DNA of 22,778 nt from a virus. Both the position numbers and the translations under genes were made by a program. Shown here piece by piece: positions 1 through 19,285 of this stretch. The stretch's first letter is position 1; every line of letters starts with the position of its first letter. The stretch spans positions 1 to 22,778 of the IMG/VR virus record IMGVR_UViG_3300045413_000043; one strand, written 5' to 3'. The notes beneath the pieces are model-generated. The model saw only the letters and a list, made by a program, of their open reading frames with translations. It was not told where the DNA came from and ran no database searches.

Positions 1-2561
1 TGAACAAGGGCGGTTCTCTGTCGTTCGGCGGCAAATATAATGCCGCTGGCGGTTACGCGACATTCGCTAGCATCTGGGGCTTAAAGGATTCGGCGGCTGA
101 TGGCGCATTTACCGGCTATTTGGCCTTTGCCACTTCGCCTGGTGGCACGCCAACGGAAAAGATGAGAATAACAAGCTCCGGCAACGTCGGCATTGGAACA
201 TCGAGTCCTGTCGCAAAAACTCACAGTAAAGGTTCTGGAACAAGTGGACAAGTTTCAGCCGATTGGATTTTAGAGAATTCTTCGTCAGGCACGCTTGGTC
301 TTGATATTACCGGTTCAGCCGGGTCAAGTCGCGCTCGATGGTTACGTGCTGGCGGTCCATCAACAGGCACCAACTCAATGACAGAATCATTTTGTGTGAT
401 GCTAGAGGGTTCAAATGCTGGCAACGTCGGTATTGGGACGACGGAGCCCGGACAGTTATTAGACGTAAATGGTGTCTCGCGGATGAGAGATTATTTGCAG
501 CTACAAACTGGTACGACTTTAAGCGGATACTTCGGCAGAGCATCAGGATTCATTGCAGGTGGTGGACATAACGAACTTGGAATCAGGTCAGAATCAAAGT
601 ATTACGTTGCCACTAACGGCGATGGAACACCTCGCGTCACAGTGGACACATCTGGCAAAGTCGGCATCGGGACGACAAGTCCTCAAAATGGCATACATGT
701 AGTTGTGGACGATGCCACGACCAACAATGTTACTAATGTTTTACGCCTTGACCATACGACTACAGGCACAGCCGCGAACGGAATCGGAGTGGGGTTAGCA
801 TTCATAGCGGAGAAATCAAACGGGGGAGCAGAGAGTGTCGCGGATATTCAGGCAATCTTGACAGATGTAACTGCTGGGAACGAAGATGGAGCTTTAGCAT
901 TTAGGACAAATCTCAATGGCACACTAACAGAGTATGTAAGGATTACATCTACTGGCAACGTCGGGATTGGAACGACGAGTCCGAATATCTATGGTGCGGG
1001 AAACGGGCGTTTCCTTTCTATATTGGGTGCGGGTTCAGTCGCGTCTGCGGCAAGCGGACGCATTGAACTTGCGAATAATAATACAGGGAGTGACTACGGC
1101 GTCGGGGAATTGCTTTTCGTTCTGGCGAACAACAATAACGAAAAGAGAGTGGCGCAAATTTATTCTGTAACCGAGGGGAACGGCGGTGCCAATGGATTTG
1201 GAGGCAGTCTATACTTCGTGACGAAACAGGACGGTGTCGCGGGTGGTGGAGCTGTGAGAATATACATTGCAAACTCCGGCCACGTCGGCATCGGCACGAT
1301 TGGACCACAGAGAACCTTAGATGTGGCTGGAAGCGGTATTAGGGTTCAGGGAATTACAAGTGGCGGAGGCACAGGCTCAGGCATGGAAATAGGTAATACT
1401 GCTATCTATTCTTATAATAGGGATACTAGTCAATACAACCTGATGAATATTGGTGACTCCATGTATATTGCTTCAGGTGCTTCATCAAACCGCAACGTCG
1501 GCATCGGGACGACGAGCCCAGGCAGCAAGCTTCATGTGTCGGGAGATATTTCAACCGATAACACCTATGGCTTCCGATCTTACGGAGTTGGTTCTGCAAG
1601 TGCAGCCAATGCTGAATGGATTCAGGTGGATCACAATGGGGCCAGTGATAAGGCGCGTTTTTTTACGACAGCCAGCGGAACGGGCAGTGCTCGCGATATA
1701 GTTTTTTCGTCTGGCACAGGGTTTACACAATTATATCTAAAAAACGGCGGCAACGTCGGGATTGGGACGACGAGCCCGGGGAGGCCACTCTCCGTTAAAG
1801 CTGATTCCAATGGATACAATCTTGGTTTGAATGATAGTGGGAATACTGAACGCTCATGGTTTTACAGCACCTCAGGAGGTTCATTTTGGCAGACGGCATC
1901 AGGGGTCAAGCTACAGTTGTATGGATCTTCTGGTACGGGACTTGTCATTGACAATGCAAGCAACGTCGGCATCGGGACTACCACACCACTTACAAATTTA
2001 CATGTTAGAACAGGTGGTAGTTCGATTGCTGCACAAGCAGTTTCTACAGCAGCTTTTCAAAATAATGCAAATGCAAGCGATAACTGTATTCTTTCAATCG
2101 CTTCAGGAAATACCGGACTTGCAACAATCTTTCTAGGTGATCCAGATAATTATGCTCGTGGTCGTTTCCAGTATGACAACAACACAGATGCGATTGAGTT
2201 CTACACAGCGACGACAAAGTGGATGTCTATTAGTTCAACCGGCGTAGTTAATCTTGCTCAATTAACAGCCAGTGCACTTGTTGTAACAGATAGCAGCAAG
2301 AACCTTATTTCTGGGCCAGCACTACCTGCTGGATCAGCCGCAGCAAGGGTAGTAAAAACTGTATTAACTTCTGGAATGATTTCTGGAAATGTAGCAACAC
2401 AAACTCATAACTTGTCAACCGATCAAGTAAATGCTCAAGTGCAGAAAGTTTCTACTAAGCAGCGGTGGTATCCTGACATAGTAATGAGCACAAATTCCAT
2501 TGCGATTGATTTTGGGTTTGCTCCTGGAGATGGAGAATTTGAAGTGATTACTGTAGGCTAA
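1..2561 (+). CDS. Tail fibre protein with NVGIGT repeats, 5' partial
   Basis: The reading frame is open from base 3 at the window edge to the TAA at 2561, so the true start lies upstream; the TTG at 120 is only an internal codon. The protein is low-complexity, rich in Gly, Ser, Thr and Asn. It contains eight copies of a motif close to GNVGIGTTSP, each followed by a short strand such as KLHVSG or LLDVNG. This pattern is known from beta-structured trimeric phage tail fibres and other surface fibres. The last ~70 residues have an H-L-T...V..QV...P-D-I...I-F..AP...V-I-T-V-G pattern seen at tail-fibre C-termini. I see no C-terminal intramolecular chaperone (peptidase S74) domain. Likely role: host recognition at the virion surface. 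Base composition shifts to more A+T around 1950-2000, roughly where the repeats end, suggesting a mosaic gene. Confidence 0.85.
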   Translation, partial: NKGGSLSFGGKYNAAGGYATFASIWGLKDSAADGAFTGYLAFATSPGGTPTEKMRITSSGNVGIGTSSPVAKTHSKGSGTSGQVSADWILENSSSGTLGLDITGSAGSSRARWLRAGGPSTGTNSMTESFCVMLEGSNAGNVGIGTTEPGQLLDVNGVSRMRDYLQLQTGTTLSGYFGRASGFIAGGGHNELGIRSESKYYVATNGDGTPRVTVDTSGKVGIGTTSPQNGIHVVVDDATTNNVTNVLRLDHTTTGTAANGIGVGLAFIAEKSNGGAESVADIQAILTDVTAGNEDGALAFRTNLNGTLTEYVRITSTGNVGIGTTSPNIYGAGNGRFLSILGAGSVASAASGRIELANNNTGSDYGVGELLFVLANNNNEKRVAQIYSVTEGNGGANGFGGSLYFVTKQDGVAGGGAVRIYIANSGHVGIGTIGPQRTLDVAGSGIRVQGITSGGGTGSGMEIGNTAIYSYNRDTSQYNLMNIGDSMYIASGASSNRNVGIGTTSPGSKLHVSGDISTDNTYGFRSYGVGSASAANAEWIQVDHNGASDKARFFTTASGTGSARDIVFSSGTGFTQLYLKNGGNVGIGTTSPGRPLSVKADSNGYNLGLNDSGNTERSWFYSTSGGSFWQTASGVKLQLYGSSGTGLVIDNASNVGIGTTTPLTNLHVRTGGSSIAAQAVSTAAFQNNANASDNCILSIASGNTGLATIFLGDPDNYARGRFQYDNNTDAIEFYTATTKWMSISSTGVVNLAQLTASALVVTDSSKNLISGPALPAGSAAARVVKTVLTSGMISGNVATQTHNLSTDQVNAQVQKVSTKQRWYPDIVMSTNSIAIDFGFAPGDGEFEVITVG
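180..1988 (+). repeat. Eight dispersed NVGIGT coding repeats
   Basis: A roughly 30-base segment resembling ggcaacgtcggcatcggg recurs in frame at about 180, 420, 654, 954, 1278, 1491, 1749 and 1959. Spacings are irregular, 210 to 324 bases. Codon choice is kept more alike than the amino acids require (for example AAC-GTC-GG at six or more copies), while the intervening sequence is unrelated. This looks like repeated short DNA anchors between variable fibre modules. Confidence 0.85.
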
Positions 2562-2566
2562 CATCT

Positions 2567-3085
2567 ATGGCATTACCATCACCATTTGTTGGAATTAAGG
2601 TTCGACTGGGAAATAGTTCTACCTTTTCCGGTGTTGGAGGTTCGGTAAACCATAATGTAACTACTGTAGAAGACAATACTGGTGGCGGAACAGAAGTTGA
2701 TTTAATGTCTTATACAGTTCCTGCTAATGCTTTGAATGCTAATGGGGATTATATTCATCTTGTGTTTTGCGGAGAAAAGTTTGGTGCTCTTTCAACAGAA
2801 TTTAAGTTGTATATTGGCGGAAGCTCCTATTCATTCTTTTCGGGCACTACTGTTGGTTGGTGGATGTTTCACTTATACATCATTAGAACAGCGTCGAATG
2901 CTGTAAGAGCTGTTTATTGGGGACTCTTACCAAACAATACGCCATTTTCTACATACGTTTCACAGGGCGTTACGCTTTCAAGCACTTTTGTTGTAAAGAT
3001 TACAAGCAAGACTACAGGAACTGGGCCTACATCCTATTCAAGGCAATACGTAGCACTTTGTGATTTTTTACCGGTTCAACCATGA
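2567..3085 (+). CDS. Small virion-like beta-rich protein, unknown function
   Basis: 172 residues, starting with the ATG five bases after the tail-fibre stop. No classical Shine-Dalgarno is visible. The segment at about residues 36-70, with Thr-Gly-Gly-Gly-Thr, LMSYTVPANAL and a following Asn-Gly-Asp, resembles a beta-sandwich domain found in many phage structural and fibre-associated proteins. No signal peptide, coiled coil or enzyme motif is visible. Its place right behind the tail fibre suggests a fibre-associated or tip protein. It overlaps the next gene by 4 bases (ATGA). The family resemblance is from memory and the function is inferred only from context. Confidence 0.6.
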   Translation: MALPSPFVGIKVRLGNSSTFSGVGGSVNHNVTTVEDNTGGGTEVDLMSYTVPANALNANGDYIHLVFCGEKFGALSTEFKLYIGGSSYSFFSGTTVGWWMFHLYIIRTASNAVRAVYWGLLPNNTPFSTYVSQGVTLSSTFVVKITSKTTGTGPTSYSRQYVALCDFLPVQP

Positions 3086-3558
3086 AGTTAATTAACTCAA
3101 CGCAGCTTTCTGCTGAACTGACTGGTTTTGGATTCCGCACAGTTGAATTCCGGGATGTATTGTATTACTGCCCAGAATTCAGCTGGTTAGAGAAATTTGA
3201 TGAATATCTTCAGCCGCTGCTTGCTCCTTTGAGAGATGCGGTTAAAGCTGGTTTCAAGTGTGTGGATTGTGATGATTTTGCGATGAGGGTTGTTGATCGT
3301 GCGCTGGATTGCTTATTAGCTGGTGATAATGATAAACCTGTTTGTGGACATTCTGTAGGACTCGCAGATGTTATCATCCGAAACTTTGACGATGATGGGA
3401 ATGTTTCAGTAGGACTCAATGGAATAACTGGCAGTCATGAAACAAACATTATTCGCTGTGCTGATGACTGGTATTTTTATGAACCACAAACCCGCAAACA
3501 CTGCAAAGTTAAAGATGCTCTTGGTGTTATTAGTATTCTTGCTTGGTGCAGGATGTAA
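3082..3558 (+). CDS. Putative papain-fold cysteine peptidase-like protein (MOA C-terminal type)
   Basis: 158 residues, with an ATGA overlap to the upstream gene. A candidate Cys-His-Glu triad is visible. Cys63 lies in CVDCDDFA, the C-D-D-[FY]-A context typical of papain/transglutaminase-like nucleophile helices. His119 lies in GSHETN, and Glu134 lies in a YFYEPQT strand. This order and spacing resemble the Marasmius oreades agglutinin C-terminal protease domain and the phage proteins annotated as MOA-related. There is no signal peptide. The protein could be virion-associated, act in lysis as a peptidase or amidase-type enzyme, or serve another maturation role. It directly precedes the membrane/lysis genes, which makes a lysis role worth considering, but no cell-wall-binding motif is seen. 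The enzyme assignment is moderate; the substrate is unknown. Confidence 0.5.
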   Translation: MKLINSTQLSAELTGFGFRTVEFRDVLYYCPEFSWLEKFDEYLQPLLAPLRDAVKAGFKCVDCDDFAMRVVDRALDCLLAGDNDKPVCGHSVGLADVIIRNFDDDGNVSVGLNGITGSHETNIIRCADDWYFYEPQTRKHCKVKDALGVISILAWCRM

Positions 3559-3598
3559 TAGCACTACTCCACCACCAAAACCTCCACCCATGTATTAG
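3479..3598 (+). CDS. Tiny Pro-rich lipoprotein overlapping the peptidase gene (o-spanin candidate)
   Basis: A 39-codon frame read in +1 relative to the end of the cysteine-peptidase gene. From the ATG at 3479 it has a basic n-region (KLK), a run of Leu/Val/Phe, and LLGAGC as a lipoprotein signal, giving a mature 14-residue peptide CNSTTPPPKPPPMY. An internal ATG at 3515 would give a 27-residue form. Cys after a hydrophobic core, a tiny Pro-rich mature part and an overlapping-frame location are all traits of Rz1-type outer-membrane spanins. It is, however, far shorter than lambda Rz1, and no partner i-spanin overlaps it. The stop lies one base before the next gene's ATG. The lipobox has Gly at -3, which is not the commonest residue. 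Confidence 0.5.
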   Translation: MNHKPANTAKLKMLLVLLVFLLGAGCNSTTPPPKPPPMY

Positions 3599-3599
3599 T

Positions 3600-4052
3600 A
3601 TGAAGCTAACATATAAAACCATAGTTGAAGCGGTCCAAGCCCTCAATTCGTTTAATCCACAAATCGCATGGAAAACTAACCTGCGACTTGATCGTAATTT
3701 GCGGAAGTTAGATTCTGCCGCAAATGAGTTCCAGTTCCTTCGCAATCGCATTCAGTGGCAATGCAAGAAGGATAAATCTAAACCAGCGAATCGTTCAGAT
3801 GGTTCTGCGGAATTGACTCCAGAAGAACATCTTGAATTCTCTGAGAAGCTGGAGAAGCTCTTTGCTGAGTCTGCTGAAGTTGATATTCATCCAATCGAAC
3901 TAATTAACTCCGAGCAGAATCAAGCGCCAACTGATCCTGAGTTTTTTGTTGATGAGAGTGCTAATCCAATGCCCCGTTCGATCCGTGCTACTTTGCGGGA
4001 AGTTATCTTTACTGAATGGGCAGGCAAAGTAAACGGCGAACATAAGGTATGA
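3600..4052 (+). CDS. DUF1617-like phage protein
   Basis: 150 residues from the ATG at 3600. An upstream TTG at 3543 is in frame, but using it would bury the start inside the preceding genes. The N-terminal half has a VEAVQALNSF helix, a basic helix around residues 24-52, and an ELTPEEHLEFSEKLEKLF segment at 71-88 followed by a short strand VDIHPIEL. This layout matches the small phage proteins grouped as DUF1617-like, which sit beside tail and lysis genes and have no proven role. The C-terminal 50 residues are acidic and look disordered. It overlaps the holin candidate by 4 bases (ATGA). Confidence 0.5.
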   Translation: MKLTYKTIVEAVQALNSFNPQIAWKTNLRLDRNLRKLDSAANEFQFLRNRIQWQCKKDKSKPANRSDGSAELTPEEHLEFSEKLEKLFAESAEVDIHPIELINSEQNQAPTDPEFFVDESANPMPRSIRATLREVIFTEWAGKVNGEHKV

Positions 4053-4258
4053 AATGGAGAAAATGGAGACTAGGATTACTTGTAGCAATAATGACCGGCT
4101 GCTTTACAGCTTTGACCGGTCTTGCTGCTGGAATAACCAGGGAACAGTTTCTGATTATTCTGTTGGTAAGTATTGGTAAGGATGCTTTGCTGTTCCTCAA
4201 AGAACATCCTGTCGATACCATAACAAATGGGGACACTGAACATAGGACGAGAGTATGA
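4049..4258 (+). CDS. Putative holin (two-helix membrane protein)
   Basis: 69 residues with a short basic N-terminus (MKWRKWR) and two hydrophobic segments, about residues 8-28 and 33-50. These are followed by the G-K-D-A-L-L-F-L-K-E-H-P end typical of a widespread small phage holin group whose second helix runs into a Y/F-L-K-x-x-P signature. AAGG lies just upstream of the ATG. Role inferred from family: forms inner-membrane lesions that trigger lysis. It sits in a chain of ATGA-coupled small genes. Cys18 after a hydrophobic stretch could mimic a lipobox, but a second membrane helix follows, so a holin is the better reading. Confidence 0.6.
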   Translation: MKWRKWRLGLLVAIMTGCFTALTGLAAGITREQFLIILLVSIGKDALLFLKEHPVDTITNGDTEHRTRV

Positions 4259-4560
4259 ATGGTGAAAGCACAATAACAAATAAAACACTTGTTTCTATTG
4301 GCACTGTTGCTATTCTTGGCGGAATAGTTTGGTGGGGAGCAACTATCTCCTCGAAGGTTGATTCCATTATTGCCATGCAGACACAGTTTTCTTTGTCGCT
4401 TGGAGGACAGCGCAAGGATATTGATGCAATGTCAATTAAACTTGTTGAGTTTGACAAGCTCGGAAGTCCGGCGCTGGTGCCGCGCATTAACTCTCTGGAA
4501 AAACAAATGATCGAAGTAATGCTTCGATTGAACAAAACCGTAAATGAAAGGACTCAATGA
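4255..4560 (+). CDS. Membrane-anchored coiled-coil protein (XhlA or i-spanin-like)
   Basis: 101 residues. One hydrophobic segment at about residues 11-31 (with GGIVWWG) is followed by a long heptad-like helix, most clearly at about 75-100 (ending near LEKQMIEVMLRLNKTV). A single N-terminal membrane anchor followed by a coiled coil is the architecture of inner-membrane spanins, and also of XhlA-like haemolysin/holin accessory proteins. It is ATGA-coupled at both ends, to the holin candidate upstream and to another small membrane protein downstream. This supports a place in the lysis group. I cannot tell which of the two roles applies. Confidence 0.5.
   Translation: MNGESTITNKTLVSIGTVAILGGIVWWGATISSKVDSIIAMQTQFSLSLGGQRKDIDAMSIKLVEFDKLGSPALVPRINSLEKQMIEVMLRLNKTVNERTQ
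4547..4552 (+). promoter_or_regulatory. Shine-Dalgarno AAAGGA for the 4557 gene
   Basis: AAAGGA ends 4 bases before the ATG at 4557 and lies inside the end of the upstream gene. It is one of the few clear ribosome binding sites on the plus strand and supports that start. Confidence 0.5.
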
Positions 4561-4757
4561 AAACAAGTTGGAGAACCACAGTATTCGGCGCTGGAGGATT
4601 ACTAACTGTTCTAGTATCTGTCCTCAATGCACTGTTTGATGGCGATCCTGCTACTAATCCAGATTGGTCAGCAGTAATTACCGCAGCAACTGCATCCATT
4701 GGCCTCCTTTTTGCTCGTGATCACAAAGTCACAAGTGAAGATGCTGGACTTAAATGA
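4557..4757 (+). CDS. Small two-helix phage membrane protein (second holin-like)
   Basis: 66 residues. The N-terminus KTSWRTTVFGAGG runs into a hydrophobic helix (about residues 8-27). A polar loop DGDPATNPDWSAVI and a second hydrophobic stretch (about 40-52) follow, then LFARDHKVTSEDAG. This W-x-T-T...GDP...PDW...G-L-x-F-A-R-D pattern recurs in small proteins of the lysis regions of many phages, often annotated as holin or membrane protein. It has a good AAAGGA site and an ATGA overlap with the next gene. Having two small two-helix proteins, here and at 4049, suggests a holin/antiholin or pinholin pair, which is inference. Confidence 0.55.
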   Translation: MKTSWRTTVFGAGGLLTVLVSVLNALFDGDPATNPDWSAVITAATASIGLLFARDHKVTSEDAGLK

Positions 4758-4948
4758 TTACAGCGTTGCTGAAACTTCTAGCCTCAATTCCTTTATTAGC
4801 TAAGCTGATAAAGGAAATTGAGGCCACTTGGAATGAAATCAAATCTCATAAACGTCAAGAAGCTAAAGATGTTGCTGTTGATGCTGCTATTGACAGGGTG
4901 CTCTCACCACCGCCTGGAGAACAGTCAAAGGTTGATGAACAGAAATGA
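4754..4948 (+). CDS. Short membrane-anchored protein, i-spanin-like
   Basis: 64 residues. The N-terminal ~20 residues are hydrophobic with two lysines (LLKLLASIPLLAKLIKEI), followed by a charged helical stretch (about 20-50) and a Pro-rich, charged tail. Its distal half is overlapped in another frame by the lipoprotein gene at 4833. That nested arrangement is the classic Rz/Rz1 layout, so this is the natural i-spanin candidate. It is shorter than most Rz proteins, and the lysines make the membrane anchor look amphipathic. It could instead be an unrelated small membrane peptide. The start is fixed by an ATGA overlap with the upstream gene. Confidence 0.5.
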   Translation: MITALLKLLASIPLLAKLIKEIEATWNEIKSHKRQEAKDVAVDAAIDRVLSPPPGEQSKVDEQK

Positions 4949-5550: not shown

Positions 5551-6633
5551 ATGCCAGTCTCAAACCAATTTCTCATCAAAGGAATCACACCGACGAATTG
5601 TAGTCAAGCTACGCTGACACAACTTGTAGATGCCGCATTACCTTATACAGACAAAGGGATGGTGATTGTCAGTAATGACACTCCAGATGTTTCTACTTAT
5701 CCTTCGCTGGGTCGCTGCTTGTGGGTTAAGCCGTCTGAGTATAATGCAACGGTGCGGCGCTACAACACAAACAGTTCTTCCTGGGAAGTTATCACAATCG
5801 GCGCTTCTGGAATAGGGACTAGTCAACTGGCAGATTTAGCAGTAACGCCGGCGAAACTGTATGCTCCAGGCGCTGCGCATTCAGGAAAGCAACTAATCGT
5901 AAATGCTTCCGGTAACTTCGAGCTGACTTTGTATGCTATCGCTGACAACAGTGTAGCAATAACGAAACTCTCTAAAGGATCTGGAAATGCTTCAAAGCTC
6001 ATTCGAGTAGCTGCTGATAATAGCAGTTTTGAATTCTTCACGCTGAATGCAATCAACTATATTGCTGATGGAGCAATCAATCCAGTAAAGCTGAACTTCG
6101 GAGCAAATAGTTCAGTGATTGTTTCCAACGCTTCTGGAGTTCCTGTTGTAGTAACAATCAGTTCTCTTGCTTCTTTGTTCTCTGCTGGTGTTCTTGCTCC
6201 AGCGAAGATTACTCCGGGAAATGAAAGTCAGCAATTAGTTACGCGGAACGGTGTAGCCATCTGGGAAAATGAAACAAACAGAACATTGTCAACTACTCAG
6301 ATCGGCACTAACCAGAATCTTCCTGCTGCGGCGGGAACGATTGTTATTGCTCATGGATTATCCGGTATTCCTCGCTTCATTGATTTGCGGCTTGTTTGTA
6401 TCGATGGTGGCGGCGATGCTGGATATGCTTTGAATGATGAAGTAGATTTCAGGGATTTGTCATACGATGACACCGACAATGTTGCTGGCATGAGTGTCAA
6501 GTATGATTCCACTAACATTACTTTTCGATTTACTGCTGGCACCTTAATCTTGCAGCACGCAACAACCGGCGCTGAAACAGCGATCACACGATCTAAGTGG
6601 CAAGTGAAAGCACACAGACTAACTATTGTCTAA
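5551..6633 (+). CDS. Second tail fibre-like protein
   Basis: 360 residues. Residues 90-220 contain loose repeats of the form S-x-L-A-D-x-A-V-T-P-A-K-L, N-S-V-A-I-T-K-L, D-G-A-I-N-P-V-K-L and V-L-A-P-A-K-I-T. These are the collar- or stalk-like repeats of many phage fibres, in which regular A-V/I-x-x-x-K-L units precede beta strands. The C-terminal ~100 residues carry IVIAHGLSGIPRFIDLRLVC followed by a G-Y-A-L-N-D-E-V segment, a C-terminal domain common in tail fibres. The gene has no clear ribosome binding site and is followed after five bases by the next ATG. It is distinct from the NVGIGT fibre at the left edge, so the phage may carry two fibre types. Confidence 0.7.
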   Translation: MPVSNQFLIKGITPTNCSQATLTQLVDAALPYTDKGMVIVSNDTPDVSTYPSLGRCLWVKPSEYNATVRRYNTNSSSWEVITIGASGIGTSQLADLAVTPAKLYAPGAAHSGKQLIVNASGNFELTLYAIADNSVAITKLSKGSGNASKLIRVAADNSSFEFFTLNAINYIADGAINPVKLNFGANSSVIVSNASGVPVVVTISSLASLFSAGVLAPAKITPGNESQQLVTRNGVAIWENETNRTLSTTQIGTNQNLPAAAGTIVIAHGLSGIPRFIDLRLVCIDGGGDAGYALNDEVDFRDLSYDDTDNVAGMSVKYDSTNITFRFTAGTLILQHATTGAETAITRSKWQVKAHRLTIV

Positions 6634-6638
6634 CTTTT

Positions 6639-7613
6639 ATGCTGAAAAACATCATAGAAAATACTTTCGGTCCTCTAGGATTAGATCCGCAGCGCACAGA
6701 GGATCGACTGTTATTGGTGAAGAAGATCAACTTTGCTGCGAAGGAATTATGGGATGAGACTGATCTTATTGGATCGTTGCAAGAACAGTTTTTTGTAACG
6801 ACAGATGAAAATCAAGTAACTTTTCCATATTACGTCTATCAGATTCGTGGACTGCGTTCTGTTAATACGAACGGTCCTTTTGAGTTGAAGGATATGTCTC
6901 CACGTTATTATTACGGCGCAGGCTATGATAGTAATATCGAGTGGCGTCTTTTGCCAAAATCTCCGATTGAAAGAAACATTTCTAACTCGGCGCCAATGAC
7001 TATTAGTGTCCCGGTCGCTGAAACTGTAAGAGTGAGATTTACTGTTCGTGGAAGGACAACGAACTCCCAGAAACTTAGTGAGACTGTAACACTAGAAGTC
7101 GGAGAAACAGCAGTAGCATTCACACAATCTTTTGAAGATGTTCTGTTCTTCCACAAAGATGTTGTTACCACAAATGATTGCACAATGCGAGATGCAGATT
7201 TGAACACTATTGCTGTGATTCCAAATGCTCTCTTGAAATCTTTATATTGTGTGGCGCAGATTCGTGATCCAAGTTTCGATAATACAATCAGCAACAATGC
7301 AACTTTCCAGCTATTGTTCAAACAGTTGTTTGTTCCATTCGTCAATGACGATGACGAATATCCTGTCGAAGATTATGACGATGCAATCGTCTGGAAAACT
7401 CTGTCACACTTTTATGCTACAAAAGAAGGTCAAGAAGGACTTGCTGCTGCTTATGCTGGACAAGTTTTGGGATTACTGCGAACTAGAGATGCAGATGCTT
7501 CTCGTGGGATTGTTAAGCCTGTGCAAGTGAGAGCTAATAGGTTCATTAAAGCCCTGAATTCTTACGGATTCTTTGGTCGTCGCAGCTATTCTTTATATGG
7601 CCATAACCCATAA
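6639..7613 (+). CDS. Virion structural protein, possible neck/tail adaptor
   Basis: 324 residues from the ATG at 6639; the in-frame upstream start at 6597 would overlap the preceding fibre gene. The N-terminus (residues 1-75) is a helical segment with RTEDRLLLVKKIN, A-A-K-E-L-W-D-E-T-D-L and then FPYYVYQIRGLRSV, a pattern I associate with podovirus-type virion proteins beside the tail-stabilisation gene. A beta-rich Ig-like stretch covers about residues 125-215, and a helical C-terminal domain begins near 225. It overlaps the next gene by 17 bases. A role as connector or tail-tube accessory is inferred from position; no catalytic motif is seen. Confidence 0.5.
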   Translation: MLKNIIENTFGPLGLDPQRTEDRLLLVKKINFAAKELWDETDLIGSLQEQFFVTTDENQVTFPYYVYQIRGLRSVNTNGPFELKDMSPRYYYGAGYDSNIEWRLLPKSPIERNISNSAPMTISVPVAETVRVRFTVRGRTTNSQKLSETVTLEVGETAVAFTQSFEDVLFFHKDVVTTNDCTMRDADLNTIAVIPNALLKSLYCVAQIRDPSFDNTISNNATFQLLFKQLFVPFVNDDDEYPVEDYDDAIVWKTLSHFYATKEGQEGLAAAYAGQVLGLLRTRDADASRGIVKPVQVRANRFIKALNSYGFFGRRSYSLYGHNP

Positions 7614-8727
7614 ACAAGTTGACTTCAGCGGCGGGCTAAATTATCTGGCTGATCCTGCAAAGATCAAGCCGGATGAATACTACTTTTTGTCGAATGCTCG
7701 AATTCGAGATGGTGGAATTATTCCAGTTAAGTTGCCGCTGAAGATTGTTTTAGGGTTGCCTTCACCTATTGTTGTTGATATTGGAGTAACTGATCCTCAA
7801 ACCGGTGCTCCGCCGCCACCTGAAGTTACAGAAGTTCCTCCTAATCCGCCACCATATCCTGCTGAACCTACTGGTTGGCCTCCTGTTCCTCCTTTTCCAG
7901 TGGGAAGTCCTTGGCCTCCTGTTACAGAAACAATGGAAGATCCACCGGATTATCCTCCGAGAGTATTACCTACTTTACCTTCGTGCGATAGTCAAAGGAC
8001 TTATGATGGAACATCTCGTCCTTGGATGCCTGCCGGAATGACTGGTCCATTGAAAGCGCCAGCAACAATAACCCAGACAGACAATCCAAACAATATCCTA
8101 TCTCCTGCTGTTCTTACTTGGTGGGAATCAAAACTTGTTGCAGATTTTGCAAGTTGGGCAGTTGCTAATGGAGTTCAGTATGACGCTTATGACACTTACT
8201 GGGTTTGGGATACTGGCACGTCTGGAATAGATGCTTTGGCATTGCATGGTTCTGGGACATATCAACCGCAACCTGAACCTGGTTGGGTGATGAAAATAGA
8301 ATACTGCGAAAAAGTTTCTGGACCTGGGCTATTTGTTAGTATCAATTATTACAACACCAGTAGCCAGTGCAACGATTCTCTCTTATCAGGGTCTGTCAAC
8401 AATGCAACAGAATTTCCTCCTGATCCTGTTGTATTTAATAAAGAACAGGGGCCGGTGCTTAATCCAAGTATTGCGCCGCAAACAACTCATAGAGTATTTC
8501 TTATTCGATTTGACGCTGCTTTTCTAACACATGGAGTCGGAGAGATGGGCCAGGCTTATACGTTCACAGCACGGCATTATACGTATAATCTTGAAACAGA
8601 AGCCTGTGATCTTGGAACAAATTGGCCGTTTACTAAAACGTATGATGATGTAGTTTCTCTCATTAATACTGCACCCGGTTCTGGAACACTAGCCGATCCA
8701 TACAGAATAACTCATAATGTATCCTAA
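7597..8727 (+). CDS. N-terminal part of a tail stabilisation-type protein with Pro-rich insertion
   Basis: 376 residues from the ATG at 7597, which overlaps the upstream gene by 17 bases; an in-frame start at 7573 is less likely. Residues 8-48 (VDFSGGLNYL, DEYYFLSNARIRDGG, PVKLPLK) form the N-terminal signature of a phage tail family in which the chain normally runs on into a beta-propeller-like body. Here that continuation appears in the next gene instead. Residues 66-128 are extremely Pro-rich, and residues 130-376 form an unrelated Trp/Tyr-rich region with several Cys. The gene ends with TAA immediately followed by the ATG of the next gene, so translational coupling is likely. Confidence 0.6.
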   Translation: MAITHKQVDFSGGLNYLADPAKIKPDEYYFLSNARIRDGGIIPVKLPLKIVLGLPSPIVVDIGVTDPQTGAPPPPEVTEVPPNPPPYPAEPTGWPPVPPFPVGSPWPPVTETMEDPPDYPPRVLPTLPSCDSQRTYDGTSRPWMPAGMTGPLKAPATITQTDNPNNILSPAVLTWWESKLVADFASWAVANGVQYDAYDTYWVWDTGTSGIDALALHGSGTYQPQPEPGWVMKIEYCEKVSGPGLFVSINYYNTSSQCNDSLLSGSVNNATEFPPDPVVFNKEQGPVLNPSIAPQTTHRVFLIRFDAAFLTHGVGEMGQAYTFTARHYTYNLETEACDLGTNWPFTKTYDDVVSLINTAPGSGTLADPYRITHNVS

Positions 8728-11016
8728 ATGATTGCTCAAGGTATATTCGGAGCGGATTCGGTTTTACTAGCGTTTTTTGACGGTAGAGCTTACTACCGAG
8801 ATTTTGCATCAACTGATGAAGCATTCCGGCAGATAAATGGTTTGCAGTTAGATGCTAATGTTCCATTCATTTATGCTGTTCCCATCCCAGGATCAAGCAT
8901 CAATTTCGCACGAGAGAAGTTCGGAGAAGGAAATGAGAACATCATTTTCACTAATCCTACAACAGCGACTCCAGCGGCAGTATTCGTAACTGACGGAGTT
9001 ACTCAGCCTGTAATTATTCCGCCGAATGGTCAATGGAGATTGACGAAGACTTATTCTCAGTGGACCATTGATGAACCGGAGTATGTTCCGATAGGGACAT
9101 TGCCTGTATATGTAGGTGTTAAACTTTATTTGGCGGCGCGGGATAAAGCAGGACGATTGACCAGAATCCTACATTCAGTTTCTGGTAGGCCACTGGATTT
9201 CATGATTCCGATTGGTGAAGATGGAAACAAAACATCTGTAGATGAAGAACTTGGTGGTGCTCCTGTAGTTCGTCATGCTATTGCTTATGATGAAATTACT
9301 GCGTTGAACAGGATTGCTACAACCGAAGATTCTTTCTTTGCGGCGACGCGGAAAAGCTCCTATCTTGTAACGCCGATTGCCGATGACTTGTTTGGAGAAC
9401 CGAGATTCAAGAACCAGTTCCTGTTCTCCACCGGACCAGAGAATCAATATAGCACAGTAGATATTCTTGGAGATACTGCACTAATTGACAGCGGCGGTAT
9501 TCGTGCATTTAATGCTATTGCTGCGCTGAAGAATGAAGGCCGCAACAGCGTATTTAGTAGGAAGATTTTCCGGTTATTCCACTCTGTTGTCCAGACAATC
9601 ACCACAGCGTTTCCGTTTGACAATTATGCGCTGTTTGCTGTGAATACAATCTACGGTCCAGGGATTGTAGTGTATGACACGCTGGTTGAAAAGTTCATCG
9701 CTCTCGATATTTATCCTGGAGTTGGGCTGATTAAGCAGTTTGCTGAGATTAAAGTTGCTGGCAGCAGGCGATTGTTCTTCATAACCTCTGATGCTTTCCT
9801 TTATGAAGCGTTTGCAGATACTACAACAGCGAAAGCTAGGTTCTATTTTGGGGATTTGTCCAGCGGAGATCCAAAGATCGAGCACAAAGGAGCATTCTTC
9901 TACTCAATTTTCGACCAAATCAAAGAATCTGGACGGGCACAGGTGAGTTTATTTGTAGATCATCACAGAGAGAAGTCCCTGCAAGTAGATGTTGCACAAA
10001 ATATCACAGAAAATGATCAATCTGTTGCTCTGAATCTTCCTTTTCACCACTCCACTGAAGATTCTTCAACGCCGCTGGCATTTAACTTCCAAGATTCTCG
10101 ACATGGAACTAGACTTGGATTCCTTCTTGAGTGGGATTTTGAAGGAAGTTTGAACCATGTTCAAGTAAACACTGAGGAGCGGACAGCATCTATGTCTTTG
10201 CAGCAAGAAGGGAAGATTCAAGGTAATTATTCGCAAAGCAGCACCTTTACTCCTCTAGTGCTTTGTGTTACTGGGAATGATGGAGTAGCTTCAGCGAACA
10301 AATTAGCAGTTGTTCGAGCAATTAAGAACGAGAATCCTGAGTTTGTGCTTGGAACAGGAAATCATAACTATCCTGCTGGAGCTTCAGCAACAAGAGCTAC
10401 TACATTGGAGCAATATTGGGGACAACTTCTCCAGAATGAACAGGCTTTCTTCGCACTATCGAACCGTGATCTCGATACATCAAATGGTGGGCCGGCGATT
10501 CAGTATTACTTGCAAGGTCACAGGTATTTCAAGAAGACACTCCGCGCTGGATTGTGCGATTTGTTTGTGTATAACAGTGGAATGAATACTGCTAGTGCTA
10601 TTGTTGAACCTGATGGCATTGTCGAAGGCTCAATTCAAGCAAATTGGTTGAAGCGAGAACTAGAACAATCTACAGCGACTTGTAAGATAGTTCTAATCGG
10701 TCATCCACCTTACAGCAGCATCAGTCAGTTTGCTTCTTTGCAGTTACCTTTTAGGCTTTGGGGAGCTTCTTTAGTGTTGTCAAGTTTCCATACTGCATAT
10801 GAACATCTTTTTGTTGACGGCTTGCATTACATTAACATCGGACTTGGCGGCGATTCAACGTTTGCTTCTTTTCCTGGAACCTCTGTTGCTGGAAGCATTA
10901 CGCGAGAAACTGATGTATTTGCTTTCCTGAAACTTGTTGTGAACCATTTCGCTATCGATGTTCGTTTGGTGGATACTGACAGGAACATCCTTGACTTTGC
11001 TACCATCAGCATCTAA
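8728..11016 (+). CDS. Tail protein with degenerate metallophosphatase C-terminal domain
   Basis: 762 residues; the ATG abuts the previous stop. Residues 1-70 (GIFGADSVLLAFFDGRAYY, then NFAREKF) and the following ~400 residues form a strand-rich body like the beta-propeller of phage tail stabilisation/structural proteins. Residues ~508-762 follow the purple-acid-phosphatase/calcineurin-like order of motifs: TGNDG at 515-519, GTGNHNYP at 542-549, SNRDLD at 578-583, IGHPPYSS at 657-664, and FHTAYE at 687-692 followed by a Y-I-N-I-G-L-G-G strand. Compared with GDxG, GDNxYP, GNHD, GHxP and GHxHxYE, most metal ligands are replaced, so catalysis is unlikely. I infer a virion-surface domain, perhaps for binding. 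TAATG overlap with the next gene. Confidence 0.65.
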   Translation: MIAQGIFGADSVLLAFFDGRAYYRDFASTDEAFRQINGLQLDANVPFIYAVPIPGSSINFAREKFGEGNENIIFTNPTTATPAAVFVTDGVTQPVIIPPNGQWRLTKTYSQWTIDEPEYVPIGTLPVYVGVKLYLAARDKAGRLTRILHSVSGRPLDFMIPIGEDGNKTSVDEELGGAPVVRHAIAYDEITALNRIATTEDSFFAATRKSSYLVTPIADDLFGEPRFKNQFLFSTGPENQYSTVDILGDTALIDSGGIRAFNAIAALKNEGRNSVFSRKIFRLFHSVVQTITTAFPFDNYALFAVNTIYGPGIVVYDTLVEKFIALDIYPGVGLIKQFAEIKVAGSRRLFFITSDAFLYEAFADTTTAKARFYFGDLSSGDPKIEHKGAFFYSIFDQIKESGRAQVSLFVDHHREKSLQVDVAQNITENDQSVALNLPFHHSTEDSSTPLAFNFQDSRHGTRLGFLLEWDFEGSLNHVQVNTEERTASMSLQQEGKIQGNYSQSSTFTPLVLCVTGNDGVASANKLAVVRAIKNENPEFVLGTGNHNYPAGASATRATTLEQYWGQLLQNEQAFFALSNRDLDTSNGGPAIQYYLQGHRYFKKTLRAGLCDLFVYNSGMNTASAIVEPDGIVEGSIQANWLKRELEQSTATCKIVLIGHPPYSSISQFASLQLPFRLWGASLVLSSFHTAYEHLFVDGLHYINIGLGGDSTFASFPGTSVAGSITRETDVFAFLKLVVNHFAIDVRLVDTDRNILDFATISI

Positions 11017-13270: not shown

Positions 13271-16200
13271 ATGCCAATCACACTAACAAGAGAAGATCGA
13301 AAAGCTGCTGTTCGGCAGTTAGGATACGATCCTGAACAGTGGGATATTGACGAAGTAACAAACCAGTTGATTCCGGTAACTCCTTCGGAAGATACTGGCT
13401 CACCAGAATCTTCTTTACGCACGCATGATCCAGTATCAGCAGGACCAAGTCCTTTAGGTTCAGGGTTAAGACATGCGGCTGTTGGTGTCCTTCCTTCAGC
13501 ATTAGCATTAAAAGCTGGAGTTGCTGTTGGCGCTTCAACATTGAATCCCCTTCTTGGTTTACTTGCTGCCGGTGGAACAGGAATTGTAAGCCACATGGCA
13601 GAGAGGAAGGCTATTAAAACCTTCGCTCCAGAATTTCATAAACAGCTTGAGAAGGATGTTGAAGTTAATCCTAAAGCGTCTTTTGCTGGTGGGATGCTCA
13701 GTAGTGCACCATTCATGGTTCCTGGCAAATCAATTCCAGAAGCTGCTAAAGCATTACCATTATTAGTGCGGCGCGGTGCTACTTTGTTGCCTGAGCAAAA
13801 AGCAGCTTTATATAATGTCGGATTAGGTGGAACTGTTGGAGCGGGTTCTTCAGTAGCAGAAGATATTTTGGCTAAACCGGGTCCGATCTCTGAAAGACTT
13901 AAAAACATTTCTCCGACTAAAGCTGCTCTTGGGGCTGTTATTGGTGGAGCTTCAAGCGATCCTACAAGAATTGGACAACGCTTGTTAGGACTTTCTCCTA
14001 CGATTGCCACTGCGCCACGAATTCTTTCTACTCGCAGAGCAGCAACAGAAGATACTCCGCTTTCTCCAGAAGAACTTAACCTTGTTCGTCTAGGTATTGA
14101 GCCAGGCGCTGAAGCTCCTGCGCCGACAGTAAAAACTAAATACACGAAGGAAGAACTGAAAGCTGTTAAGCAGCAAATGAAGGATGAAGCTGCTGAATTA
14201 GCAGTAGCAAAGAAACTCAAAACTAGTGCTGCTGGAGAAGAATTAGCTAGAGGAATGGAGGCTGAAGTTGCTGAAATTCGAGAAGCTAAATTAAGGGCCG
14301 CTGGAGAGCAGAAGAAAATTGGAGATGCTGATGAAATTGCTGCACAACAAAAAGCTGAGGCAAATGCTGCTGAAGCCGCAGCAAAACAAGAAGCTGCATT
14401 GAAAGAGCAGGCAGATAAATTAGCTACTGGACAGCGTGCATTAACTGAGCGTAAATTAGCTCTCCGTCAAGCTAAACTTGAGGCAAGGGCAAAAGAACTC
14501 GAAAAGCAGGAAATAGATTTCAAAAACAAGCTAGCTGCTAAAGCATTAAAACCTCCACCTAAGCAGCGGCCTGGTATCGAAGAATCAAGATTACTTGGGC
14601 TTACGGATGCTGAACAAGATCGATTGATTCGTCTAGGAGAGATAGACCGGCGCGGTGATGCTACTCCAGAGGAAGTAAAAGAACTTAATCTTCTGTTCGA
14701 TAAATCACAGAGGGCTTCTCCAGAGGCTGCTGTGCCTGAATTACCTTCTTTTGATGAAGTCAGTAAAAAGATTGGATGGAAAAGTAAGGTTAAAAATCCT
14801 ACTCCTGGAAGTATGCATGGGTCGCATTCCTGGAAAGATTTGCTTGATGCAGTCCTTTCTGGGAGAAAGCCTGTTGCTACTGGCTCCGCACTTCCTCCGA
14901 AATCATCTGTTCCAGAAGGAATAGTCTTTTACCGACTTACAGATGATGATAGCATTAGCCATTTTGGGTCTTACGTTGCCGTGAAGAAAGGTAACGAAGA
15001 CGCTATTAATAATTTGTTACTTGCTAGGGATTCAGAAGAAGTCGGAAAAGCTCTTGGTTATACAGCAGAAGAAATTGCTGAATATGCTACAAGACTCAAG
15101 ATGATTCGGGATTATGAGAAGAAACATGGACCGTTTTATCAGAAAGAGCCTGCTGCTGTAGAAGCTCTACCTACTACTCCAAAAGCAACAAAACCCTCAG
15201 AGGGTTGGTTCCAGTGGTGGAGAAACCTTGCTGATGAGCATGGAATTCAGCTTGAACGGGACGGCACTTTAACTCAAAATGGTAAACCGATTGCTGGTTT
15301 AGCCTTCCTTCGTCAAATGTCCCAGCGTGCTCTGGCGAAAATCAATCCATCGAAAGCTGGATTTGATACTCCAGCGCATGAAGTATTTCATATTTACTTC
15401 AGGGATATGTTGGAAGGTCCATCGAAGATTCGAGCTAAGTTAGCGAAGAAAGCTCTTGATTCTTTGGAACGTGCAGAAGGAGAAGTTGCTGCGCGGATTG
15501 ATGCAATCCGAAAAGCTAATCCTGGAATGTCTCGTCGAGAAGCTGCTGAAGAATTTCTTGTGAGTGCTGTTGGAGAAGAATCGATCTGGCGTGCTCTAGG
15601 CGAGGACACAGGATTTAAGAGAGCAATGCAGGATATTTGGTCTAATATCAAGGCGCGGTTTGGTCCTAAAGGAAGTGCTACAATCGATGATTGGAAACGG
15701 TTGTATAGTAACAAACTTGTTTACGACGCTCCGACTGGTGCTCGGTATTCGAAAGAGTTGCCGGTAGCAAAACCTGTTGGCGATCCAGAAGTATTTATGC
15801 AAGATGAACCGACTATCCCTAAAGTTGAATCTCGCGCAAGAGTAGGTATTCCTGGAATCCATGATTCAAGAGGCTCAGAAGCTATTATGGATTTGGACAG
15901 AAATGGTTTTGGAATTTCTGAGCGTTATAAGAAGTGGCTGAGGGAGGTCAAAGGGTTTTCTGATCAAGAAATTGCTGATTTGTCTAACCGGCTAAGGGAA
16001 GCCAAAGGTATTGGAATCGGATCATCACTTAAATACCAAGATGAGCCAGCAGTGCCTAAACTTGAGAAGCAAATCACAAGACGCCGTCATCCGCAATTTT
16101 TGATTAATGGAATCCACCAATATTTTGATAGAAATCATAAATTGGTTGCAGAAATCTATCGAGATCCTGAAACAGGATTTTGGCGTGATAATGACGATCA

Positions 16201-19200
16201 AAGTTTCATTGGATTTTCACGATCAGAAGCAGAAAGGTCTTTGAATTTAGCACAAGACGAACCAGTAATTACTCGCCTGGAACCCCTGGAAGAATCTCTT
16301 GGCCCTGCTGACAAAAACCCTAAAGCTACTGCTCCAAAATCTAGGGTAGGTGTTCCTGGAATGGTTACTGGCGGTAGGGAAGATATTGGAGGAGAAGCTA
16401 TAATGGATTTAGACAGAAGCCCTGGGTTCCCTTATCGTTATAGGGAGTGGTTACAAGATGTTAAAAAACTTTCTGACTCGGAAATTGATGCTTTGGAACG
16501 TCAAGCGGCAGCGGACCAAGTAGGTTATATGCGAAAGAAAACACAAGATGAACCTACTGTCCCGGAACTTGAAGCAAGTGCCCCAAAATCTAGGGTGGGA
16601 ATTCCTGGTATGAAAGTTTTAGGGTCACAACCTATTATGGATCTAAGCAAAGAAACTTCTGGAATTTCTGAACGCTATCGGGAATGGTTAAAAAATGTTA
16701 AAGGATTGTCTGATGACGAGATTGCTGCTTTGGATAGGCAACGGGCGGCAAATTCTATTATTCTTACACGACTAAAAAAGCAGGACGATCCATCAATTAC
16801 TTCCCTAGATCGCCGCCCTGTAGAAGATAATCCTAGAGCAGCACTTCCAATCCCGCGTCCAACTGAAGCTGAAGTAATGTCTGCACCAGAAGTAGAGAAA
16901 CAGCCAAGAAGTCTTCGAGTCTTGGAAGGAATCCATTCTAGGATTCTTCATCACAAAGACTACAAGAATACTCCCGAAGCTCATTATGCTGCCCGCACCT
17001 TGAACCGTTGGGAACGTTTAGCAGATTTCAATCAAGGACGTTTCGTAGAACTTCCTCAATTAGCTCTGAACGAATTCACTCCAGCGGTTCGAGATTCCTA
17101 CTACCAGAAAGCTATGCAGGCTGGACTAACTAAGCAGCCAGCTAAATTCAACGCCGAAGAACAGAAGGTCGAAAACTACATGCGCAAATACCTGTTAGAT
17201 GTTCATGATGAGGCTCGTAATATGGGCTACAAAATCAATGATCGGGAACCAATCAGCGAACCTACCTATTTTCCTAGCATCATGTCCGCACAAGTTCAAC
17301 ATGTTCTTACACAGCGCCGTCATACTTTAGAAGGACAGCGTTACTGGAAAGCTATCACAGATCACTGGAAAGCTGCCGAACTGGAAGACACTGATAAACT
17401 CCTAGAGAATTACCTCAAAGCTATCTCTAGCATCCAGAAAGAAGGTTTAGGTCAAATTGAGTTTGGTGCTCTGCGGAAAGCTCAAGGTGTTGGATTGCCT
17501 GTTTCAGTCCGAGAGAAGGACTTGATTGTTGCTGTGTCGAAATACGGTAAACGAGTATCAAAGGATATGGCCTTATTTGAGGCGGTGCAATCTGATCCAA
17601 AGGCCATGAAGATATTAGGAATTAAAGGACACGACGGAGAAGAAGCAGGAGACGTGAAATGGGATTCTGGCGAAGAAGTAAAATCGCTGGCAGGAGTAGA
17701 AGAAATTAATACGGCACTGCAACATAATATGGATTTGATGCCGAAGCATCCTTTTACGCGTGCTGTAGATAAACTTGTTTCTAATCTTCTGATGGGTCCA
17801 ACAACCGGACTAAAGAACCTAATTAATACTCCAGCGCAGGCACTTCCTTATGTAAAAGGCGGACAACTTCCTGAATTCTTGACAGCATATTCTCGCGGTC
17901 GAGAACTAACTGCCCGCGCTTTTGGTTCAAGAGTAATCCGAAATAACATGCAGTCAATCTTGCTCGGAGATGAAGTTGATACTTCCAGTAGAATGCTGCA
18001 ATGGTTCAACAAAATGTCAGCAGGACTGTATCAATATCAACAAGGAGCTTTGGAAAAAACTTCTAGGCTTTGGACTTTAGGACTTGCTGATATTGCAAAT
18101 TCCCAGAATCTTGCAAGAGCACAAGCTGGAGATTTAGCGGCTAGAAAAGCCCTAAGAACTATGGGCGGTTTACTTGAAAAGAACCGACTCGAAGAACTAA
18201 TCAGTGGGCGCGGTAAATCAATAACTGAGCGAGAAATGGACATGCTAAACAAAGAATTTGTTGATGCTGTTCAGCAAACTTATGGCCCAAAAGATCAGCC
18301 ACGCTGGACCCTTGAAGGAGCGTATTCTCCATTCTTTGTGTTGGCGCGGTGGAGTGTTGGAAAGGCAAACAACATCATCAAGCATGTTGTTAATCCGTTA
18401 GTGAATGATGGGAACATTGTTCCTCTCATTGTTTATGCTGGCGGAACATTCCTGAATGGGTTGGCACTCCAAAAACTTGTTGAGATTCTTAATAATAAAA
18501 GGGACTTCAACCCAACTGCGAATGAAGTTTGGGATGCCATGAAAACTGATGGACGTAAAGCAGAGATTGCTGCTGGGATTATTAACATTATGCAACTGGG
18601 AAGTGCTGGAGGATTTGTCTCAGATGTTTTGAAGATTGTTGCTGATGTTGGTTTAACAGGACAGATGCCACGAGGATACGGAATTCCAACCGTTACTTTA
18701 GGTGTAAATCTTGTGGAGGATTTAGTGAATCTACAAAGGGCTGTCAACGATGGAACAGAGCCAGTTGAAGCTATCTTAGCATTCATTAAAGATTTAGCCG
18801 TGAAGAATGTCCAATCAGTCAGATTAGCTTTATCTCATTTGCCGGGAGCTAGAAAAGAAGAACTGAAAAGGAAAGAACGTTACAGGGATTTAGCTGTATT
18901 CGAGCGGCTGACTGGTGAAAGAACAATGCCGTTGGATGCTTCAGCGCAGCGCCTAAGTAATCCTCTACACCGCCCAGACATTAAAGCATTTAAGCGAGCG
19001 AAGACTGTAGAAGAAGGTGCTGAGTTGCTGCCAAAACTAATCGAGAAAGCTGAACAGAGAGCAGCAGGAAATATTGAAAAGTTCCGAGATGAAATGAAAA
19101 CTTTGAAAGGGCACAGTTATCAAACTATGCCCAATCCAAAGACTCATCCGAAAGATTTTTCTGAGTTCTTCCAGTTCCTTGTTCGGACACAGGGAGAACA

Positions 19201-19285
19201 AGCTGCTCTTGAACATTTAACAGATTTCATGCAGCAGAATGCAGTAGATAAGGTTAAGGCAAAGCTAGTGCCTAGTGTTCGCTAA
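13271..19285 (+). CDS. Giant ejection/polyvalent-type protein with HExxH peptidase motif
   Basis: 2004 residues. Order: Gly/Ala-rich hydrophobic region (about 66-108) that could insert in membranes; Ala/Glu/Lys coiled coil (about 285-430); a small helical domain near 540-625; a zincin-like region with HEVFH at 703-707 and a candidate third ligand in AEEF (Glu760/761); an array of five QDEP linkers (844-1180); and a long helical C-terminal region with a PTTGLKNLINTPAQ segment near 1510-1525 and further Gly/Ala-rich stretches. Giant multidomain proteins with peptidase plus helical C-terminal regions occur among phage polyvalent and internal virion proteins injected with DNA. I infer roles in genome ejection and cell-envelope or host-protein processing. 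Its stop overlaps the convergent gene's stop. Confidence 0.75.
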   Translation: MPITLTREDRKAAVRQLGYDPEQWDIDEVTNQLIPVTPSEDTGSPESSLRTHDPVSAGPSPLGSGLRHAAVGVLPSALALKAGVAVGASTLNPLLGLLAAGGTGIVSHMAERKAIKTFAPEFHKQLEKDVEVNPKASFAGGMLSSAPFMVPGKSIPEAAKALPLLVRRGATLLPEQKAALYNVGLGGTVGAGSSVAEDILAKPGPISERLKNISPTKAALGAVIGGASSDPTRIGQRLLGLSPTIATAPRILSTRRAATEDTPLSPEELNLVRLGIEPGAEAPAPTVKTKYTKEELKAVKQQMKDEAAELAVAKKLKTSAAGEELARGMEAEVAEIREAKLRAAGEQKKIGDADEIAAQQKAEANAAEAAAKQEAALKEQADKLATGQRALTERKLALRQAKLEARAKELEKQEIDFKNKLAAKALKPPPKQRPGIEESRLLGLTDAEQDRLIRLGEIDRRGDATPEEVKELNLLFDKSQRASPEAAVPELPSFDEVSKKIGWKSKVKNPTPGSMHGSHSWKDLLDAVLSGRKPVATGSALPPKSSVPEGIVFYRLTDDDSISHFGSYVAVKKGNEDAINNLLLARDSEEVGKALGYTAEEIAEYATRLKMIRDYEKKHGPFYQKEPAAVEALPTTPKATKPSEGWFQWWRNLADEHGIQLERDGTLTQNGKPIAGLAFLRQMSQRALAKINPSKAGFDTPAHEVFHIYFRDMLEGPSKIRAKLAKKALDSLERAEGEVAARIDAIRKANPGMSRREAAEEFLVSAVGEESIWRALGEDTGFKRAMQDIWSNIKARFGPKGSATIDDWKRLYSNKLVYDAPTGARYSKELPVAKPVGDPEVFMQDEPTIPKVESRARVGIPGIHDSRGSEAIMDLDRNGFGISERYKKWLREVKGFSDQEIADLSNRLREAKGIGIGSSLKYQDEPAVPKLEKQITRRRHPQFLINGIHQYFDRNHKLVAEIYRDPETGFWRDNDDQSFIGFSRSEAERSLNLAQDEPVITRLEPLEESLGPADKNPKATAPKSRVGVPGMVTGGREDIGGEAIMDLDRSPGFPYRYREWLQDVKKLSDSEIDALERQAAADQVGYMRKKTQDEPTVPELEASAPKSRVGIPGMKVLGSQPIMDLSKETSGISERYREWLKNVKGLSDDEIAALDRQRAANSIILTRLKKQDDPSITSLDRRPVEDNPRAALPIPRPTEAEVMSAPEVEKQPRSLRVLEGIHSRILHHKDYKNTPEAHYAARTLNRWERLADFNQGRFVELPQLALNEFTPAVRDSYYQKAMQAGLTKQPAKFNAEEQKVENYMRKYLLDVHDEARNMGYKINDREPISEPTYFPSIMSAQVQHVLTQRRHTLEGQRYWKAITDHWKAAELEDTDKLLENYLKAISSIQKEGLGQIEFGALRKAQGVGLPVSVREKDLIVAVSKYGKRVSKDMALFEAVQSDPKAMKILGIKGHDGEEAGDVKWDSGEEVKSLAGVEEINTALQHNMDLMPKHPFTRAVDKLVSNLLMGPTTGLKNLINTPAQALPYVKGGQLPEFLTAYSRGRELTARAFGSRVIRNNMQSILLGDEVDTSSRMLQWFNKMSAGLYQYQQGALEKTSRLWTLGLADIANSQNLARAQAGDLAARKALRTMGGLLEKNRLEELISGRGKSITEREMDMLNKEFVDAVQQTYGPKDQPRWTLEGAYSPFFVLARWSVGKANNIIKHVVNPLVNDGNIVPLIVYAGGTFLNGLALQKLVEILNNKRDFNPTANEVWDAMKTDGRKAEIAAGIINIMQLGSAGGFVSDVLKIVADVGLTGQMPRGYGIPTVTLGVNLVEDLVNLQRAVNDGTEPVEAILAFIKDLAVKNVQSVRLALSHLPGARKEELKRKERYRDLAVFERLTGERTMPLDASAQRLSNPLHRPDIKAFKRAKTVEEGAELLPKLIEKAEQRAAGNIEKFRDEMKTLKGHSYQTMPNPKTHPKDFSEFFQFLVRTQGEQAALEHLTDFMQQNAVDKVKAKLVPSVR
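15800..16810 (+). repeat. QDEP-linked module array inside the giant protein
   Basis: Five linkers of the form Q-D-[ED]-P-x-[IV]-x-x-[LV]-[ED] start at 15800, 16037, 16253, 16544 and 16781 (residues 844, 923, 995, 1092, 1171). Modules one, three and four share R-V-G-[IV]-P-G-[IM], an I-M-D-L segment and Y-[KR]-[KE]-W-L-x-x-V-K-x-[FL]-S-D-x-E-I. Module two is unrelated (HPQFLINGIHQYFD onwards). Modules three and four are also very alike in DNA at their starts (about 16331 and 16580), so duplication is recent enough to see. Confidence 0.8.
19282..19285. other. Convergent genes with overlapping stop codons
   Basis: The four bases ctaa hold the plus-strand TAA (19283-19285) and the minus-strand TAG (19284-19282). 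The structural block and the replication block therefore meet with no intergenic space, and any bidirectional terminator would have to lie inside coding sequence. I saw no obvious hairpin with a T-run around it. Confidence 0.9.

Follow-up and report, generated by a model that had tools for sequence, protein, structure and literature searches.

A purple-acid-phosphatase-like domain with a dismantled active site on a virion-type protein of an uncultured phage

Accessory domains are common on phage particles and their origin is seldom caught in progress. The viral DNA analyzed here (IMG/VR record IMGVR_UViG_3300045413_000043, 22,778 nucleotides, referred to as the window) encodes a 762-aa protein that ends in a region resembling purple acid phosphatases (PAPs) with altered metal-binding positions, which raises the question of what a phage protein does with an enzyme fold that appears to have lost its catalysis. 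A preliminary description of the locus had proposed a dead PAP-like domain fused to a phage tail protein and re-used for binding a receptor or a phosphate ligand. The open reading frame and the motifs quoted there were present exactly as described:

8728..11016, + strand: 762-aa virion-type protein, consisting of an N-part (residues 1 to ~500, nozzle-like/virion structural) and a C-terminal PAP-like domain
10252..11013, + strand: residues 509-762, a PAP-like domain (calcineurin-like metallophosphoesterase) with a dismantled active site

Identification of the C-terminal domain

Pfam returned only a sub-threshold PhoD match for the 762-aa protein (E 0.038), the PAP-like domain was not recognised by PHROGs and NCBIfam, and a PDB sequence search yielded nothing relevant. 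Viral contigs and phage records scanned with the window protein alone contained no relative, and no isolate phage record matched either this protein or its later found relative L105. The search for relatives was opened with a composed seed sequence modelled on the bacterial PAP-like family, which matched ten sequences in viral contigs (L002-L011) and none in the phage records. Pfam assigns these sequences to Metallophos (~1e-11), and compared directly with the window protein by BLASTP they showed 24-30% identity (E 1e-9 to 4e-17 in the ten-sequence set). Since the relatives were scored directly against the window, the conclusion is independent of the seed. Repeated rounds of scanning viral contigs, together with a single scan of bacterial genomes, supplied the remaining relatives. 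Three human-gut records (MT835841, MT835888 and MT837099) were dropped as apparently ordinary PAP-like genes on unannotated, perhaps bacterial, contigs, and a fourth (MT836329) as a chance match.

Against a profile built from intact relatives only, the window domain scored 165.7 bits (E 1.7e-44 when 2.5e8 sequences are searched), while 500 shuffles of the same domain reached 10 bits at most. The family profile in turn matched solved PAPs at 1.7e-16. On the basis of the sequence profile, which carries the homology, residues ~509-762 are assigned to a PAP-like domain.

Structure prediction from the single sequence gave a pLDDT of 34, and AlphaFold2 with 41 relatives in the alignment gave a pLDDT of 91.6 and a pTM of 0.91. 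The best Foldseek matches of this model were mammalian PAPs (E 6e-16), and VIA-align superposed it on pig PAP (1ute) with a Z of 30.4 (2.3 A over 250 residues) and on GAP50 (3tgh) with a Z of 28.2. The model thus shows the PAP fold, and a structure lacking a phosphatase fold, which would have spoken against the domain assignment, was not obtained. As the alignment consisted mostly of intact enzymes and pulls the model toward the enzyme fold, the model is to be read as compatible with a PAP fold rather than as independent proof of it.

Active-site residues of the window domain

All five motif registers of the window domain could be aligned with the profile of intact relatives:

10276..10278, + strand: motif 1 ligand, Asp to Asn (N517), by alignment to relatives
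10360..10371, + strand: motif 2, GNHNY for GDNxY; Asp to Asn (N545), next residue H546, Tyr kept (Y548)
10459..10470, + strand: motif 3, SNRD for GNHD; Asn kept (N579), catalytic His to Arg (R580)
10699..10704, + strand: motif 4, GHPP for HHPP; His to Gly (G658), with His659 as a non-ligand neighbour
10783..10806, + strand: motif 5, SFHTAYEH for GHxHxYER; both ligand His gone (F687, T689)

The seven ligands D, D, Y, N, H, H and H correspond to N517, N545, Y548, N579, G658, F687 and T689. Five of seven are therefore replaced and Tyr548 and Asn579, which were absent from the ligands listed earlier, are retained, whereas the catalytic His of GNH(D/E) is R580. The ligand losses of the preliminary description were thereby borne out, with the exception of motif 4, where His659 had been taken for a retained ligand. 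In mammalian PAP the metal ligand of this motif is the His of H-x-P. The mammalian GHYP aligns here with HHPP or GHYPP (L013) in the relatives, and because the first His of H-x-P in these relatives aligns with G658, the true ligand column is Gly658 and His659 is not a ligand. By this alignment less of the site is left at motif 4 than had been claimed. The intact relatives align in identical register, so that intact ligands offset from the chosen positions were not observed.

To judge the loss against general divergence, five relatives (L112, L061, L107, L105 and L049) were compared with the window domain. Each retains 7/7 core active-site residues, whereas the window domain retains 1/7; at other conserved positions they retain 57-70% and the window 65%. 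Since similarly divergent relatives keep the complete core, the loss exceeds general divergence, and in this comparison it is specific to the active site. The closest cellular relatives, bacterial PAP-like phosphatases of Hymenobacter, Planctomycetota, Chloroflexi and Acidobacteria (L063-L087), share up to 34% identity with the window over the whole domain and, unlike it, have an intact core site in 23/23 counted. Fold, motif order and spacing, and flanking strands are common to the window domain and the PAPs (TRAP/uteroferrin, 1ute and 2bq8; plant enzymes, 1kbp and 4dhl; PF00149), from which it is set apart by the replaced ligands and catalytic His and by its fusion to a virion-type protein.

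These substitutions suggest that the window domain is catalytically silent. Its ancestor would be a catalytically active PAP-like metallophosphoesterase carried by a virion-type phage protein. In the window lineage the two-metal site was dismantled with the fold kept, and phosphoester hydrolysis by the PAP mechanism should be gone. A domain re-tooled for another metal site or for metal-free chemistry by way of H546, H659, H688 or R580 could still be active, as several His lie one residue away from lost ligands. We consider this highly improbable: the intact L105 and L107 carry His at position 546 as well (GDHAY and GDHIY), His659 corresponds to the usual second His of HHPP, and the dead members have no new motif in common. 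A compensation by new His ligands one position away was accordingly rejected; these His were judged to be inherited, as His occurs there in intact relatives.

Relatives, gene neighbourhood and repeated loss

Near-full-length relatives from uncultured phages (L101, L105/L108 and L107/L106) align with nearly all of the window protein at 33-34% identity (E 1e-102 to 1e-112). L105 and L107 have the N-part, the gene order and the C-terminal domain in common with the window, and every ligand as well as the catalytic His is intact. L101 retains the Asp of motif 1, the Asn of motif 3, the His of motif 4 and the first His of motif 5. Its motif-2 Asp is gone (GNI, aligned by eye), Leu has replaced the catalytic His and Lys the last His. 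Among these four the window is the most degraded. Conservation of the ligand losses in homologues, proposed earlier as a check, was consequently not found: the site is intact in L105 and L107, partial in L101 and dead in the window, and losses recur elsewhere.

The genes at 5039, 5551 and 6597, the fused gene, and those at 11372 and 13271 occur in conserved order in L107 and in L105 (or L108, a near-copy of it); with L101, synteny comprises the gene at 5551, the fused gene and part of 13271. Two genes lie directly upstream of the fused gene:

6597..7613, + strand: conserved gene on the upstream side, termed adaptor-like solely from its position, with synteny to L105 and L107
7597..8727, + strand: upstream ORF, its first ~50 residues matching the N-terminus of the near-full-length relatives

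After these ~50 residues the latter ORF continues with a Pro-rich stretch and a ~300-residue insert for which no match was detected. It is separated from the gene at 8728 by one TAA, with an ATG directly after it and in frame, and the nozzle-like gene thus appears to be split in two in the window. The gene at 13271-19285 encodes a 2004-aa protein with no Pfam match. It contains AHEVFHIYF, a stretch similar to HExxH, as well as roughly three related copies of a segment reading GISERYxxWLxxVKGxSDxEIxxL, and it is reminiscent of the large internal virion proteins that consist of many domains. At 3-2561, cut by the window start, a tail-fibre-like protein with many NVGIGTTSP repeats is encoded.

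The designation as a phage tail protein is weakly supported. PHROG 3287 ('virion structural protein') matches 3/4 members of the N-part family (best E 9e-6) and, like the gene order, supports it; the window's own N-part was not matched by PHROG 3287, and hhalign gave no usable profile match between the N-part and T7 gp12. A tail location of the 762-aa protein is probable, judged from PHROG 3287 in its relatives and from gene order, and the protein is likely to be part of the virion.

In most other viral members the PAP-like domain is located C-terminal to a different, ~280-aa protein family (L005, L012, L013, L015, L023, L053, L056, L057 and, by its sequence, L102). No profile match was detected between this carrier and the adaptor-like gene of the window, nor was similarity found when the neighbours of the N-parts of the two carriers were compared with each other or with T7 gp11/gp12. 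The domain is carried by at least two N-terminal families whose mutual similarity is undetectable. Downstream of the domain in L056 lie a tail fibre gene and a PHROG 3287 virion structural gene.

On the second carrier the domain is intact in L013, L015, L057 and L005. L012 is damaged (Asn to Ala, His to Arg, catalytic His to Asn), as is the pair L053/L054 with three ligands lost. Dead copies are found in L056, with 7/7 ligands lost to hydrophobic or neutral residues, and in L102, which has lost four ligands and the catalytic His and reads NRD like the window. In another phage, L035, the domain belongs to a 1101-aa protein and all ligands are lost (motif-2 register uncertain). This ligand-less copy, at 8052-8999 of an 83-kb phage record, has several ligands replaced by Lys. 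The type of replacement thus varies by lineage, being hydrophobic or neutral in L056, basic in L035 and acidic in L053.

To analyze how often the site was lost, a tree was built without the ligand columns. The domains of the window, L101, L105 and L107 form a supported clade (95/90), and the dead label requires five changes on the tree. Placing all dead copies in one clade was rejected by the AU test in the denser set (p 0.0057) and not in the first, sparser set (p 0.147), so that the rejection depends on the closer relatives that were added. Given the long branches in the tree, the safe statement from these sequences is that the site was lost at least twice independently. Degraded sites were counted in 8/23 viral and 0/23 cellular members (p 0.004), an excess that is suggestive only, because one viral scan used patterns allowing degenerate motifs. 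A possible cellular dead relative is a 1204-aa protein of a Clostridiales MAG (L094, ORF 1241-4855), which in a weak alignment has E, S, A, R, N, N and G at the PAP positions.

Intact, half-lost and dead sites are hence found in one gene and one neighbourhood, and the second carrier repeats the series, so that the conversion of an enzyme into a non-enzyme can be tested directly on a virus protein. The proposal of a PAP-like fold on a virion-type protein with its catalytic site lost is supported by the profile, the fold model and the intact relatives. The series also cautions that the automatic annotation 'phosphatase' will often be wrong for such domains.

Retention and possible role of the dead domain

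A domain that lost its activity may be a decaying relic, drifting because catalysis is no longer valuable and merely yet to be truncated. The graded and scattered losses, partial in L012, L053 and L101 and near complete in L056, L035, L102 and the window, would fit such a decay, as would the somewhat lower conservation of the window PAP part compared with the N-part (28% versus 35% identity to L105, 27% versus 34% to L107). However, no stop codon interrupts the 254 codons of the window PAP part (probability 3e-7 at the given composition), its divergence from L101 equals that of the N-part (35.5% and 36.4% identity), and about two thirds of the other family-conserved positions are retained. Codon usage of the PAP part is also like that of the N-part. 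In the damaged L053/L054 domain, dN/dS was 0.085, with 3/14 changes nonsynonymous (p 3e-5), which shows purifying selection in this pair; as L053/L054 belong to another lineage, the value is not the window's own. No close relative of the window protein itself was found, and for its copy of the domain selection would be suggested by stop freedom and N-part-like divergence. Continued decay is therefore regarded as improbable.

The main rival to a binding function is a pure scaffold, in which the dead domain serves as a structural or docking piece (for fibres, ring closure or neck protection) and the old cleft is free of ligand. GAP50 of the Plasmodium glideosome and VPS29 of retromer are metallophosphoesterase folds with a non-enzymatic anchor or scaffold job. 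Both are good structural matches and, with GAP50 at Z 28.2, among the nearest solved folds, and they provide a precedent for a catalytic fold in a non-enzymatic job; unlike the window domain, they are eukaryotic and act in an unrelated context outside virions. The presence of the domain on at least two dissimilar N-terminal families would also suit a scaffold, as would the lineage-specific replacements in L056, L035 and L053, which look as if no shared ligand had been selected. Against it stands the intact site at the equivalent place of the equivalent gene in L105 and L107, which indicates that access to a substrate was initially possible at this position and was probably favored by selection. 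We regard a scaffold as a serious possibility with the lesser share of the probability.

With modest confidence we favor the reading that the dead domain is a repurposed pseudo-phosphatase and a non-catalytic binding module on the particle surface. The active versions would presumably have as substrates the phosphoesters that a particle encounters. In the window, the two changes of Asp to Asn and the change of His to Arg would remove metal binding and negative charge, and the former cleft may bind a surface ligand without cutting it, possibly a phosphorylated envelope polymer. For the window domain, a receptor or phosphate would be plausible candidate ligands. Lys or Arg was gained at an active-site position in 5/7 degraded members (window, L101, L102, L012 and L035), which would suit metal-free anion binding; this hint is weak, because L056 and L053 do not follow the pattern, and the hydrophobic or neutral site of L056 does not suggest phosphate binding. 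More tentatively still, and with some doubt on our part, uncultured phages may repeatedly turn a virion-mounted PAP-type phosphatase into a dead binding module, with carriers switching between cutting and holding phosphorylated host-surface polymers.

PAP or PAP-like genes have been reported in phages, namely Rowlf gp26 (PMC12352085) and genes of EK1 phages such as SwissCheezer (PMC13014141). They are phage-encoded PAP-like domains like that of the window, and dead forms were not reported there. In the open-access literature no paper was found on dead phosphatase domains of virion proteins. PAP-like genes in phages are thus already known, the dead forms on virion-type proteins appear to be new, and phages seem to reuse the PAP enzyme fold for a non-catalytic purpose.

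An intact PAP partner elsewhere in the virus was also considered and dropped: a second PAP copy was found neither in the window record nor in the seven further records searched whose domains are damaged or dead, and the records may be fragments (some are 77-83 kb). Between L053 and L054, dS was 0.06 in the PAP part and 0.37 in the preceding N-part, as would be expected if related phages had exchanged the domain by recombination.
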